Below, in pieces: positions 34,830 to 46,217 of a DNA stretch of 64,000 nucleotides. Location of the stretch: contig NADL03000869.1 in assembly GCA_002205965.3 (NCBI GenBank), positions 1 to 64,000 on the forward strand, written 5' to 3'. Source of the stretch: Kappaphycus alvarezii (taxonomy: Eukaryota; Rhodophyta; Florideophyceae; Gigartinales; Solieriaceae). The notes under the pieces are model-generated. The model had not been told where the DNA came from. It saw only the letters and a list, made by a program, of their open reading frames with translations, and searched no databases. Position 1 is the stretch's first letter; every line of letters starts with the position of its first letter. A program made the translations under genes and the position numbers.

Positions 34830-36980
34830 CTGATTATTTTTGAGCACTTGAAAGTATGTTCATAATATACTATTTATTCTGGGAAGTACAAGCGAGTAGA
34901 TACTTTAATGACTGTTTCATCAATAATTAGGTTAATAGTCCATTTCTGTTAGTATTTTTGAATTTTTGAGAACTAAATTGTCATCGGTGTCTCAGGATCA
35001 ATAGCGAGGAGGTTTAAAGCATACTCTAAAACCTTCATTTTACCTAATCAGATTTACTCCCTAAATACCATATTGAATGAGTGCTGAGGAACCCATTAAC
35101 GTTCTTTACCCTGTAGTTTTGTTTCCGAGTAAAGCCAATCCACTTTGAGAATAAAAAAGACCTATGATAATATATTTAATAATATATTTATACTGCTTTT
35201 GAACTGATAAAATACTTTCGCATCAAAGTAAGGTATCAAATACACCATAATGTTATTTTAATGTCTCAAGTTTTCATGCACAAGATTCAGTTAATCAGTT
35301 GTGCATTTTCAATCCATCTCCTTGCTAGATCTTTTTTGACTATCGTAAACATAAAGTATCTAAACCATTCATTAGAACTGTTTATTAAATATTATTCCTT
35401 TTCTATCGATAAATAAAATTTAAGCCCCGGTAAACTGTATTTGAAGGGATAATTTTCTTTGATGACGAGAAAACGCGTTTGCACAGATTGTTTATACACA
35501 AAGACCTTGTCTGAACCATTCTTTCAATCCTCGATTTTTTACTTGATGAAATGAAACGTACCGTAGGATCTCCCTTGGATGATACACATTTGAGATTGAA
35601 ATAACAGTATTCATAATCAGTACTTTTGTACTTATTTTTATAGATTAGGGGATTTAGGGGATTAGGGGATTTTAGGGGATTTAGGGGATTTTTAGGGGAT
35701 TTAGAAGATTTTATTTTGGATACCGTACAGGTTATAAAGTATGGCGGCGATATGCACCATAGGTTTTCCTTGCGGATGAAACGTTTTCTGGTCTTTGGTT
35801 TTATATCCAGCAAATTAAAACGTAACTTTTTCTATTAAAATCGAACTCTTTCTTGAAACTAATCTCTGATGAATTATTCTTAAGTGTAAATAAGAATTAG
35901 GTTTTATTTATTTTAGACAGTTAAAAACACGAAAATAAATATATCTTACATGTTAAAAAACCTTACTTCCCTTTTTAGTATGATGTAGGGCGATGTTATG
36001 TCTCCTCTGGTCCTTAAAAATTTTAATGAAAGAAATGCTTTGCTTTACGCAAAAACGTTCTACTTGCTAATATTAGCTAAGCTAAAAGGTATTGTTAATT
36101 TACGTTTTCAGTTGGATGAAATTAAGTCGTGCGTTCAATCTGTGAATTTTCATACTTACTTTCGCTGTAGTCGGAACTGATTTTTATGTTTCACAAATTT
36201 ACATTTTGCGTAGCTTATTTCTTGAATATAGTTTTTATCAATCTCTACATTTGGATGAAAAATCACGGCAGGTCACATTTGCGGGAAGCATCCTAGTAGA
36301 ATTATTATAACTACAATAATTTATTCAGGAAATGGTTTTTCAAAACTCTAATATAAATTTTTTCACGTGCAAATTTTATTCTCATCGCAGGAGTTCTGCT
36401 TTATAATAGACGTTTTGCTTTCGAGAAAATTTTGAAGCAGATAGAACGCAAGTTTGAATACCTACTTTTAATGCAAAAGATGTATTTCAATGGGAAAGCA
36501 GGAATATACCTCAATAAGCTGCTAGAAGACATATTTTATTACAAAATTGGCTAGCATAAAATTCTTCACGTCCAATGGTGGCCGAATACAGTATCTTTTG
36601 TATACAAATTGCATTATAATTTTGTCCTCAGATTTATATATAGAATCATTCCGAATTTTTCAATCTTTTTCTTCTCAATTCCTTTAAGATATGTAAAAAT
36701 CCAGACACTTTCTTTTTGGCGAAACAGTATGCAATTTGTAAATTTTCAAGTCAGAATTTTAAGTAAAATATACGTTATTTGTTTTAATCAATGATTTCAT
36801 TAATCTCTCAAGCAAATTGGAGTCTTTAAAAATACATAAATATTAATTAACGTAGAAAATTTAGTTATTATTTGAAATGAGTTCTGTAATAGTTTGGAGG
36901 ATCATCTATAGACGACATTTACGTCAAAGTTGAAGGTGATGATACATGTGGAAATTACCAATAATGTAATGAATAAAAAC
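34830..36980. other. AT-rich desert containing one minisatellite
   Basis: No coding region is supported. The only structured feature is the G-rich tandem repeat at 35,643-35,706. Confidence 0.55.
35643..35706 (+). repeat. G-rich minisatellite (TTTAGGGGA)n, imperfect
   Basis: Seven consecutive units of 8-11 bp, each a T run plus AGGGGA, vary only in the number of T (for example ATTTAGGGG, ATTAGGGG, ATTTTAGGGG). The unit resembles telomere-type T/A-G repeats. It is short and interstitial. Confidence 0.8.
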
Positions 36981-42099: not shown

Positions 42100-42486
42100 T
42101 TGGCTTCAGTTCTCAACGCCGGACCTCCTCTAATCACTGCACAATTGTCCATTCCTACTACTGGGTCAACAATACTTGCTGCGTTTCAACGCGGTTACGC
42201 TCGGCAGACAATAAATAACACGCATTCTGCTCAGCAAAAATCCACCAGCACAAAAATGTCATCTGAAGGCATTCCATCGCATTCTACTGGTTTCTACACC
42301 AACAAACGACAAACTAAAAACGTATTGAGTGTCGCTGATCGGGCGAAAATATCTTCATGGATGGTGCACAATGCTGCCATTAGTGGTCCAAAGCACATCA
42401 TTTCAAAGGCTGTTAAACACTTTAAGTCATTGTCATCATTAGAGGTCGTCGTGTGTTTACTGCCTTTGTTAGAGCTTATATTTTAA
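42100..42486 (+). CDS. Hypothetical frame, possible DNA-transposon N-terminal region
   Basis: A frame open across about 128 codons, with its first ATG at 42,256, lies in a GC-richer island beginning near 41,990. The segment VLSVADRAKISSWMVHNAAI followed by an IISKAVKHFKSL helix has the look of a helix-turn-helix with basic and aromatic spacing, as at the N-terminus of some transposases. Composition drops back to AT-rich after 42,430, where the similarity appears to end. The upstream TAGTGTGG cluster fits a transposon end. No DDE or other catalytic part follows. It may be a chance frame; no family is firmly recognised. Confidence 0.3.
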   Translation: MASVLNAGPPLITAQLSIPTTGSTILAAFQRGYARQTINNTHSAQQKSTSTKMSSEGIPSHSTGFYTNKRQTKNVLSVADRAKISSWMVHNAAISGPKHIISKAVKHFKSLSSLEVVVCLLPLLELIF

Positions 42487-42659: not shown

Positions 42660-45100
42660 CAAAAAAATCGTGATATTCCAAAACCTTCCCGTAACAGGAA
42701 AAATAAATGCCTCGCTTAGCATTGGTTTACATATTCAGCCAAATTTTCCACTTTTGCGCCTTGCAAAGTGTTTTTATGATTATAATTTTTTCTATACTGT
42801 TTGTATTAGACTACATATGCGATTGTATATATCAATTATTCGAGTCTAACTTTAATAAAAATTATCGCCAGTGCTCATTGTGATCGAGACTTCGAAGAAT
42901 GACACCGTAGCGGGAATTAATGAAAAAGTGTAGACAAATTGCTTCAGCTTTTTAAAATATTTATTCGGGTGTTTAGTAAATCTTTTGAGGCATATGGCGG
43001 CTCGGACAGAATTAACTCATAAGTAACTAGTCGGGGAAGCACAGCTTTTTGTAAATCATTGGCCCTGTAAAATTAGTAAATTATCAAAATATAAGGGACT
43101 TTCATCGTATCAACTGAACCAAGGAGTTTTTGTAAAGTAGCAAAGGCAAGAATACAAAAAGGAGATAAATAGTTGGTGGAGGTAAATTTAAAATTAAGCA
43201 TTGGTTAGCCTCCCTCTAAAATGTGATATCCATTAAAAGTTTACTTTGAATACACTCGAAAGACTAAAAATAGGATGACGCGACTGGGCTAGACATAAAT
43301 TTGAGTGGTCAGGGACAAGATGTTTTGGAAAATATTTTGATTCCATTCCTGATGTTGTTCCGGCAATGAATTTTACATCTCGTTGAGAGGAGATAAGCGC
43401 CTTTTAAATACATCTCAAATACAGTAAATGATCTCCTCATTTCCCAAATGGACAGTGATTTGTCCGTCACGAAGATGTTTATCTACTGCAAAGTGGGATC
43501 GAGAGTAGTATAAAGTGAGTCGGTTTGCAATGAGAAATTATATATCGAACAGCTCGCAGAAATGTCTCTACATTCATATCGATAAAATGGATTTCAATCT
43601 CCTATTTCATCTATTCTTTTATTGTCTATTATTCCTTCAAGAAATTACTATCTTTTTGACATGTTCCCATCCTCGCCAAGATGCAGGTAGCTGACTTTTA
43701 ACTATTCAAAGCTCTTTGTGATCAAACATAATTCTATGGGCACCCTAAATTCCCCCTCTTTCATGTAATGATTTGTTTCTCATTTTATTTCAACAATACG
43801 CGATACCGTGTCGTTCCGAAGGTAATGACGTTATCACTATCGCCATCGATATGTGCGGACAAATCAACTGGACTTGAAACTCCTCATGATCTTGGCGACT
43901 TTACAGCTGATTATCGAGGGAAGCACTGCCTTTCTGAATTCTGGAATCATAAAACCCGTGTCTCGGTGTTTGATCTAAAATATACCGTAGTTGTGCTGAA
44001 TCATCGAATTCTGCGCACTTACCTCACTACCTGACCTCGAGAGGCGGCTCATGTGTAATCCCGCCTGAATCTGAAGGAAAAAAGTTCTTTTTTCTCCTTG
44101 TTTGGAGTTTAGACTTACCGAGCGAACATGGAGTTGAGAACTGGATGAAACATATCTAAGACATGCAGCGAGGTGGGCGATATAACGGCTGTAGCCTCCG
44201 GGACCACAAGACAGAGCTGAGGGGCGATTGAATTCTGGCGCGAATAATATGGCATCGGAGTTGCAATGTCTGGTAGCGATACACATCCCGTCGTTTCCCA
44301 GGAACAAGATGCATCCTTACAAGATTTTACTCTAATGTAGGTGACACTGGGCATTACAGTAAAGTAGATGACAGTGGACTGTCAGTTTGTTTTGACACTG
44401 CGGTGAGGTAGGGCTTGATCTTAATCATTAGACATTAGGCGTGCTCAGTATGGGTCTGAATTGCAGTGGCTGATGCCGTTTGCAAGGCAAGTGGATCTGG
44501 TCAACAAGATCCGCACGCATCCAGCTGTCATCGGCGACAAACACAGTGGAGCCAGTTGAGCAATTCATCACGTTTTAGAGTCATGCACATATTGTTGCGG
44601 CCAGCTGGCAGCGGACCCACCGCCACTTTTGCTTTTCCAACAATCCTGTAATGTCCCAATCGAATAGACCCTAACTGGATTTCTCCAAACCAACAAGGCT
44701 TGCCTCCAAAAAATCTGGTTGGAGATTTCAATGTTTTGACTTTTTCCACATTTTCTGTAAAAAACGTATGTGTCATGGGTGATGGGTGATGGGTATCTTG
44801 TGGCATGCCAATACAAACTCTTGCTCCTTCCTGATCGCCTCGCTCGTTTTTTTCTCTTTTTTTCATTCTCCTTGCTGATGTTGCCATAAACTGTCCGATC
44901 TTGTACCTCATGAGATATATCTCTTCGTCATTTTCCTTTTCAGGAGCAATCGGTCTAGAGTTTTGGCCGAGAGCAAAACAAAGCATCATCTCCCGGAATG
45001 CGTGATAACAATGGCAACCACAACACAAAAAAATCAAATCATTCAACCAGTCACCCATCTTTACTGTTGCTGCTACCCAAGCATTTCACATTTTTGCACT
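42660..45100. other. No gene confidently seen
   Basis: 42.7-43.7 kb is AT-rich and empty. 43.8-45.1 kb is GC-richer with several overlapping frames on both strands, none with a recognisable domain. A short GGGTGATGGGTGATGGGTAT repeat lies near 44,778-44,798. The last few hundred bases would hold the promoter of the Cys-rich gene; no TATA box was evident. Confidence 0.4.
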
Positions 45101-45257
45101 AAATATACAACAGGCAGAGCATCACTCCCTCAAATGATTTCCACAAGCATAAAAGCCGCCCACAGGAGCAAAGGCTGCTCTTTATCCTTCACCTCAACAT
45201 CCTTTCTTACCCCCAACAAAAACCCCATCCACAACCCCACCTCCCTACATTCAAAAC

Positions 45258-45990
45258 ATGACCAATTTTACCAAACCAATCGCCCTCCTGTTTCTCCTCT
45301 CCCTCCTCTCCCAAACTCAAGCTTGCTCATGTCTGCCCACCAACCTAGAAAACTCATTCTTCTCCCCTACCACCAACCGAGTCCTCACCGCCACACCCAT
45401 CCTCACCTTTCTCTCCGATTCCACCCGCTTTTACATTCTACAAGTCGGTCATTCTACAAGTCGAACAAGTCTTCAAGCCCTGCACAAATCAAAACATCCT
45501 GCTCATCCGCACTCCAACTTCCTCTGCCGCATGCGGCGTGCGGCTCGATTTGCACACCCCCTATCTTTTCACCCTGCCTTCAGCCCCAACCCCGTCGCTG
45601 CTTCTCTGCACTGTACGTTGCAAATTCCCCTCATTCCCCTGGTGTTACGCAAACCAAACTTGACAATCTAACTCGTATGTTCGACTACTGTGTTTCCTGC
45701 TCTTCCTCCAGTTCTTTAAAAAGTATACCGATCTTACGTCTGCAGAATTGCGCTTTCTCAACTCCCGCTCTGTATGTTGCGACGGACGGTGCCGCTGTGT
45801 TGGAACAAGTATTGTCAACTGCTTTGTCGAACCGTGTAGCGTATCCACGCCGCCCTGTGCCGAGGCCACAAGATGTGTCAACAACTTTTGTGGCGGGTGT
45901 AACGCTGAATGGTTTACACAGGACGGTCTACCGGCTTGTCATGACGTCGTTGCGATTGATTCGGCAAATGCCACCGTGGCGGCACAGTAA
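45258..45990 (+). pseudogene. Secreted NTR/TIMP-like Cys-rich protein gene, one intron, frame broken by a 16-bp duplication
   Basis: The ATG at 45,258 follows a CT/CA-rich leader and opens a signal peptide (residues 1-21, ending SQTQA). Cleavage would leave mature CSCLP, an N-terminal Cys-X-Cys as in TIMP/NTR domains. The frame then meets CATTCTACAAGTCG repeated at 45,434 and 45,450, a 16-bp tandem duplication that shifts it. In the shifted frame (from 45,451) come VFKPC and SAACGVRLDLHTPYLF, a typical NTR CG-L---YL strand. A 99-nt phase-0 intron (45,613-45,711) follows. Exon 2 encodes ELRFLNSRSVCCDGRCRC and a tail with VEPC, CAEATRC, CGGC-AEW and a final C, ending TAA at 45,988-45,990. Without the duplication the product would be a continuous protein of about 206 residues. 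TIMPs use the N-terminal Cys amine to chelate a metalloprotease zinc; such activity here is inference. The lesion could be recent, allelic or an assembly artefact. Confidence 0.7.
45613..45711 (+). other. Predicted 99-nt intron of the NTR/TIMP-like gene
   Basis: The donor is GTACGT and the acceptor is TTCCTCCAG, preceded by a pyrimidine-rich TGTTTCCTGCTCTTCCTC tract. It contains an in-frame TGA at 45,661. Removing it joins LLLCT to FFKKYTDL in the same phase. The presence of the stop inside, good splice sites and conserved-looking sequence on both sides all support splicing. Confidence 0.7.
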
Positions 45991-46217
45991 CGCCGTGGTG
46001 ATGGAGTATGGATACGATGAATTGGCGTGAGTTTCAGTTGCTCGGCTGGAATTATGGAAACGGTTGCATTTTTAAATGGAGTGAAATTCGCATCAAGCAA
46101 GAGGTGGCACGCTGAATTACTTTCTAATTTAACATTATCCGACAACCTTGTCCGAATAGAGGTGTCGCGTTGACGATGGATGGTCTGGGACAATCACAGT
46201 CGTTGGCGAAAGATGCG

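Follow-up and report, generated by a model that had tools for sequence, protein, structure and literature searches.

TIMPs are generally regarded as regulators of the matrix in animals. The locus described here, from the red alga Kappaphycus alvarezii, raises the question of whether a seaweed encodes a secreted protein of the same design, i.e., an NTR-type domain that starts with Cys-Ser-Cys directly after a signal peptide and is followed by a Cys-rich tail, and whether such a gene is intact, related to TIMPs by descent, and new outside animals. The window, i.e., the whole stretch of 64,000 nucleotides that was analysed, corresponds to positions 1–64000 of contig C865 in its own genome (336.02 Mb in 884 contigs, which are referred to below by C-numbers). 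The original prediction had guessed a red-algal host, in agreement with the phycobilisome genes present in the genome. Phycobilisome frames score over the Pfam cut-off at three places (L031, L032 and L033, on C74, C669 and C837, respectively), up to 1.09 Mb into contigs, and may represent insertions of plastid DNA into nuclear contigs, or misjoins. Elsewhere in the window, the forward-strand ORF 11274–11795 matches Pfam Pol_BBD (PF22936; 33.1 bits, cut-off 27) and is a piece of a retroelement polyprotein, the forward-strand ORF 42100–42486 has a sub-threshold match to the SAT domain PF16073 (19.3 bits, cut-off 22.8), and a short tandem array of TTAGGGGAT, telomeric-repeat-like and internal to the contig, occupies positions 35645–35713.

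The features of the locus are collected in Table 1. The predicted order of a signal peptide and then CSC was recovered from the translation: the CSC at 45324–45332 directly follows the leader and continues as CSCLP. The cleavage site was placed by the −3/−1 rule, a guide to signal-peptide cleavage sites, rather than by a predictor; as the same TxA-CSC junction is found in the intact paralogues on C830 and C625, a mature N-terminus of CSC is plausible, with the cleavage site read from the sequence. The NTR-like CG-L---YL strand that had been expected to follow is present as well (CGVRL...YLF, 45532–45570), but the two elements do not share a frame: the NTR-like motif ILQVEQVFKPCTNQNILLIRTPTSSAACGVRLDLHTPYLFTL is in a different frame from the CSC segment, because a duplication with a 16-bp period shifts the frame between them. 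The CSC frame reads on to a stop at 45671, which gives a product of 137 residues that matched no Pfam family at E ≤ 10. A single frame (+1) holds both the NTR part and the Cys-rich tail, with a TGA at 45661–45663 between them.

Table 1. Features of the TIMP-like locus in window coordinates
Feature	Coordinates	Strand	Basis
Signal-peptide-like leader, 22 aa, ending TQA	45258..45323	+	Translation from the ATG at 45258; C830 and C625 with the same TxA-CSC junction
Exon 1, first part (exon 1a): CSC as putative mature N-terminus, with the first NTR strands, until the frame break	45324..45446	+	Translation, alignment
Direct repeat, two 14-bp copies of CATTCTACAAGTCG (45434–45447 and 45450–45463), period 16	45434..45463	+	Sequence
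Exon 1, second part, other frame: NTR core, C-D-loop-like SSAACGVRL, YLF strand, LLLC	45448..45612	+	Paralogue-profile score
Probable 99-base intron, GTACGT...CTAAC...pyrimidine tract...CAG	45613..45711	+	Profile scores of splice choices
Exon 2, putative C-terminal NTR helix (FFKKYTDLTSAELRFLNSR), helix by analogy with TIMP	45712..45768	+	Ungapped continuation of the NTR profile; C486 likewise ends FLNSR
11-Cys module with CVNNFCGGCNAEW	45769..45945	+	Translation, Cys count
C-terminal end and TAA stop	45946..45990	+	Translation

The duplication falls within a strand conserved in the family (GIFYIVQVVETFKG in C631). In the alignment, the window enters this strand as RFYILQV in one frame and goes on as VILQVEQVFK in the other. 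That the strand is shared between the two frames suggests a single ancestral frame which the duplication has split. The intact gene implied by the original prediction is thus not what the assembly holds: the frame is broken as assembled, and no full-length protein should be expected from this copy. Could the gene nevertheless function in the living alga, the duplication being confined to a minority allele, introduced by faulty assembly or bypassed by splicing, such that a secreted protein with an NTR domain and an 11-Cys module is made? The exons are open save for the duplication, with their Cys pattern retained, and the 99-base intron carries good-looking splice signals; in addition, the DNA search of the assembly found no second copy of the window gene, so that there is no second allele for comparison. 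However, a tandem duplication of 16 bp is an ordinary mutation, unlike the single-base error typical of long reads, and two further loci of the family, C586 and C701, are broken too. We therefore regard a functional gene as unlikely, although by no means negligible.

The splicing route was followed separately. On paper, ten GT–AG or GC–AG cuts of 10–97 bases within exon 1 rejoin the frames and keep them open across the break. The three best of these, scored with a profile of five paralogues from the same genome, remove 10–22 bases and were rejected, such lengths being too short for a normal intron. The GT–AG cuts of at least 60 bases were rejected as well: they lose the conserved, family-like strand, start with GTCCTC, which is a poor splice donor, and score no higher than the broken reading (23.2 versus 24.0 bits and 29.1 versus 29.5 bits for a 64-base cut). 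A bypass of the frame break by splicing is unlikely.

Is the broken gene related to TIMPs? Searching with the exon translations, as had been proposed alongside the prediction, gave no Pfam family at E ≤ 1 for the window pieces, which hence fall short of the gathering score of PF00965, but it gave 24.0 bits for the window model with the five-paralogue profile. None of the five members had been found via the window gene, and the broken C701 and C586 were left out of the final profiles. With the same profile, the NTR piece alone (45433–45612) scores 22.2 bits and the best of 2000 shuffles 7.3 bits (9.3 bits in another run); the window has 1246 stop-free frames of at least 30 codons, and none of them is comparable except the one holding the NTR piece, at 21.8 bits. 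When C481, itself found via the window, is added as a sixth paralogue, the model scores 29.5 bits, the NTR piece 27.9 bits and the best shuffle 8.8 bits. Taken by itself, exon 1a reaches 1.0 and 0.6 bits with the paralogue profiles, so the CSC end is backed by its position and motif, not by a profile score. Two of the window pieces had no match in NCBIfam at E ≤ 1, and the NTR piece matched no PDB chain at E ≤ 10.

The connection to TIMPs is made by the paralogues. C631 matches TIMP-2 (PDB 2tmp) with an E-value of 7.5e-7, in an alignment beginning at the shared first CSC, and a profile of four paralogue sequences (A2) matches TIMP-2 and TIMP-3 in the PDB with an E-value of 2.4e-7. Because the window piece is connected to the genome family, some members of which are in turn connected to the Pfam TIMP family and to TIMP-2, a relationship of the window gene to TIMP/NTR proteins is supported, indirectly, through its paralogues. 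The fold assignment in the original prediction holds to this extent, by homology through the paralogue profile, PF00965 and TIMP-2, but not by a direct Pfam match of the window pieces. Like the animal TIMPs (TIMP-2, PDB 2tmp and 1br9), the window gene has the (here putative) mature CSC, Ser2, the SSAxCG loop (SSAVCG in TIMP-2 and SSAACG in the window), the LC of the Cys3 partner, and the C-terminal stretch, with 30 of 112 aligned residues identical to TIMP-2 (26.8%). The columns of the Cys1 partner and the Cys3 partner are both Cys in the window gene. Unlike the animal TIMPs, it is without an equivalent of Cys13, the corresponding column being Phe and the stretch around it shortened; the alignment is uncertain at the column of Cys126, the other member of this third Cys pair of the N-domain in TIMP-2. 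In a quick tree the window gene groups with C481 (support 0.865), and the placement of TIMP-2 has a support of 0.252. Structure predictions were too poor for use, with a pLDDT of 44.5 for 45349–45612 and 39.8 for exon 2.

Relatives outside the genome were looked for in prokaryotic and viral collections. The gene region matched nothing among plasmids, and C631 nothing among plasmids and phages; alignment A2, searched against GTDB genome contigs with two patterns only, gave 34 stretches, none of them confirmed. Bacterial, viral or plasmid relatives were accordingly set aside, nothing having been confirmed in these collections by a pattern-seeded search, which misses distant relatives. The Pfam NTR family, PF01759, had no match in the own genome, and none in the control genomes either, which makes this search uninformative.

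Intact paralogues had also been proposed as a target for a search of the same genome, and six were found. The family comprises at least nine loci: six with intact frames (C631, C751, C830, C625, C486 and C481) and three that are broken, i.e., the window copy, C586 (by stops) and C701 (by a frameshift relative to C481). Two of the intact genes were found with PF00965 (C631, 46.7 bits, and C751, 44.6 bits; cut-off 23.1), and only these two of the six pass it. Protein searches from C631 reach C586, C486, C830 and C625. The window piece finds C481 and C701 at an E-value of 0.07 each, and C701 finds the window at 0.5, which are weak pairwise links; C481, to which the window gene is closest in the tree, has no TIMP among its PDB matches at E ≤ 10. 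The intact paralogues share with the window gene an NTR domain with a CxC start, at 22–29% identity to the window model, and differ from it in that their frame is intact and carries no 11-Cys tail. CSC stands right after the leader in the window gene, C830 and C625, and probably in C631 and C751, whereas C486 has an Arg at position 2 and C481 has 33 residues from the start Met before CSC.

At the DNA level, three sets of loci (C631/C751/C586, C830/C625 and C701/C481) are 92–95% identical over their longest piece of 2.0–2.8 kb, flanks included, and further aligned pieces of 0.4–0.6 kb are 88–93% identical. The degenerate C586 (L011) is a third copy of the C631/C751 TIMP gene, with 94.8% DNA identity to C631 over 2.7 kb. 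The NTR pair C701 (L006) and C481 (L005) shares 98% identity over 128 residues; the frame of C481 stays open from Met via CSC to the stop, and C701 is frameshifted just past CSC. The two near-identical intact pairs are under mild purifying selection, as read from few differences: dN/dS for C631/C751, over the first 155 codons with 22 differing codons, is 0.28 (NG86) or 0.41 (YN00), and for C830/C625, with 20 differing codons, 0.36 (NG86).

Between the NTR core and exon 2, a 99-base intron (45613–45711) is probable. The CTAAC lies about 40 bases before its 3′ end and is followed by the pyrimidine tract and CAG, and removal of the intron takes out the in-frame TGA at 45661–45663 while leaving the frame unchanged. 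Among eight GT–AG choices and two unspliced readings, this intron scores best with each of three profiles, by only 1.3–2.7 bits over the next reading (24.0 versus 22.7, 33.4 versus 30.7, and 29.5 versus 28.1 bits); the profile behind the second of these pairs (all6) includes the start of C701 in a wrong frame (CHC...). The NTR profile runs ungapped over the proposed 45612/45712 junction. Downstream of it, the frame of exon 2 is open for 108 codons, with G-rich first codon positions, and holds the second Cys-rich module with CVNNFCGGCNAEW just as predicted. Its 11 Cys in 59 codons rank first among 9627 overlapping stop-free 59-codon stretches of the window, the next having seven; a count of 11 was reached in 7 of 5000 dinucleotide shuffles, none of the seven being stop-free, for a stretch that had been picked for its Cys.

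The 11-Cys module has no convincing relative in Pfam, NCBIfam, the PDB, GTDB genome contigs, viral contigs, plasmids or the own genome. Against the PDB, exon 2 found at E ≤ 10 two TRIM25 chains only (E 0.14–0.18) and no TIMP; among GTDB genome contigs, 108 stretches matched its pattern and 0 were confirmed, among viral contigs 7 and 0, and plasmids gave nothing. Two contigs of the own genome were considered as carriers of a second such module and dismissed as chance matches: C595 (E about 0.09, with 54–57% identity over 23–24 residues in a stop-rich stretch) and C10 (E 0.2), where there is no such Cys module.

These observations bear on whether exon 2 belongs to the gene at all. If there were no intron, the TGA at 45661–45663 would end the protein, and the Cys-rich frame would be a relic or a chance product. 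Such a reading draws on the paralogues, which are single open frames, all six intact ones without the tail in that frame, and whose downstream frames (by eye, in C486, C830, C625 and C631) are without it too; it also draws on the small lead in bits of the spliced model. The ungapped passage of the NTR profile over the junction, the presence of GTACGT, CTAAC and the pyrimidine tract with CAG, the 108-codon open frame with its G-rich first codon positions, and the extreme Cys count all argue against it, and we consider it improbable. More remote still is the reading that treats the NTR frames as secondary and takes as the real gene the frame 44963–46030, of 355 codons on the forward strand and in the third frame, which overlaps the whole TIMP-like gene. 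The stop-free stretch of this frame, 383 codons, is longer than any in 1000 dinucleotide shuffles and was matched by one of 1000 local block shuffles. Yet the frame matches nothing in Pfam or the PDB at E ≤ 1, the codon-position composition, in our reading, suits the NTR frames better, and the NTR match is independent evidence of homology; we give this alternative hardly any weight.

We prefer, with somewhat more confidence than doubt, to read the locus as a red-algal gene copy, now disrupted, for a secreted protein of TIMP-like design, with a signal peptide, an NTR domain that starts with Cys-Ser-Cys, and an 11-Cys tail, whose intact relatives would inhibit metalloproteases of foreign origin. 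As described in PMC3679795, TIMPs coordinate the protease zinc through the alpha-amino and carbonyl groups of Cys1; residue 2 (Ser or Thr in vertebrates) reaches into the specificity pocket, and the loop of the Cys1 partner makes the second contact with the protease. As CSC stands right after the leader in C830 and C625, and probably in C631 and C751, these proteins are candidates for the same mechanism. In the intact members, removal of the signal peptide would expose Cys1, whose free amino and carbonyl groups would chelate the metalloprotease zinc, and Ser2 would go into the specificity pocket; the loop of the Cys1 partner (SSAAC in the window and SSAVC in TIMP-2) would pack alongside, and the enzyme would be blocked one-to-one. 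The 11-Cys tail may serve as a disulfide-stabilized anchor or as a second binding surface.

The NTR fold could also be used without protease inhibition, the family binding components of the matrix or wall, or signalling, like some NTR proteins. Hookworm AceES-2, which has a netrin-like fold, reportedly does not inhibit human MMPs in vitro, and two hookworm TIMPs are described in the same account as without a convincing demonstration of MMP inhibition (PMC3679795). Within the family, Cys1 may not be N-terminal in C481, given the 33 residues that precede its CSC, position 2 is Arg in C486, and the genome search found no PF00413 target of the alga's own. The placement of Cys-Ser-Cys directly after the leader in the window gene, C830 and C625, and probably C631 and C751, together with the retained Cys partners, speaks for an inhibitor instead, and a non-inhibitory family is possible, if the less expected outcome.

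For the inhibitor that we prefer, the likely targets would be foreign enzymes, from epiphytic bacteria or oomycetes, and not a matrixin of the alga itself. PF00413 (matrixin) had no match in the own genome, where introns could hide one; 7 of 14 controls matched it, five of them over the cut-off. A search of the own genome with PF05548 was uninformative, as 0 controls matched. The other line of evidence comes from Pyropia yezoensis, whose protein py03343.t1, a secreted PF00965 metalloproteinase inhibitor published in 2019, is induced on oomycete infection (2.13-fold in one infected stage, 5.89-fold in another) and was put forward by its authors as an anti-pathogen inhibitor (PMC6928737). The absence of a PF00413 match in the own genome and the infection-induced Pyropia protein would together favour foreign proteases as the targets.

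With the Pyropia protein in print, TIMP-like proteins are already known in red algae, and the novelty outside animals that the original prediction implied does not stand (PMC6928737). Among the open-access papers listed for PF00965 or TIMP in algae, Rhodophyta and Pyropia, it is the only one on a red-algal gene, the others being judged by their title and the start of the abstract; a layout of an NTR domain with an 11-Cys tail did not come up in the literature searches, which were directed at other subjects. As described there, py03343.t1 resembles the window gene in coming from a red alga, in being predicted to be secreted, and in its TIMP domain (in the window, a TIMP/NTR domain recognized via the paralogues); it is expressed (PMC6928737), whereas the assembled window copy has a broken frame, and the comparison goes by the published description. 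What is new is the family of at least nine loci, three of them broken, and the probable layout of an NTR domain with an 11-Cys tail, the tail being unmatched in the collections searched. This tail has no detected similarity to the C-terminal domain of TIMPs; helminths, too, have TIMPs without the C-terminal TIMP domain, according to PMC3679795.

We put forward, tentatively and as something that may well prove otherwise, that red algae have a birth-and-death family of TIMP-like inhibitors of their own, of rapid turnover and directed at foreign metalloproteases, in one branch of which the NTR domain was fused to an 11-Cys module not described before; this layout of two domains would be parallel to, and not shared with, that of animal TIMPs. 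The six intact paralogues make inhibition directly testable by simple assays. A multi-copy family of NTR inhibitors in a seaweed without a detected matrixin domain of its own would point to a use of this fold in defence outside animals.
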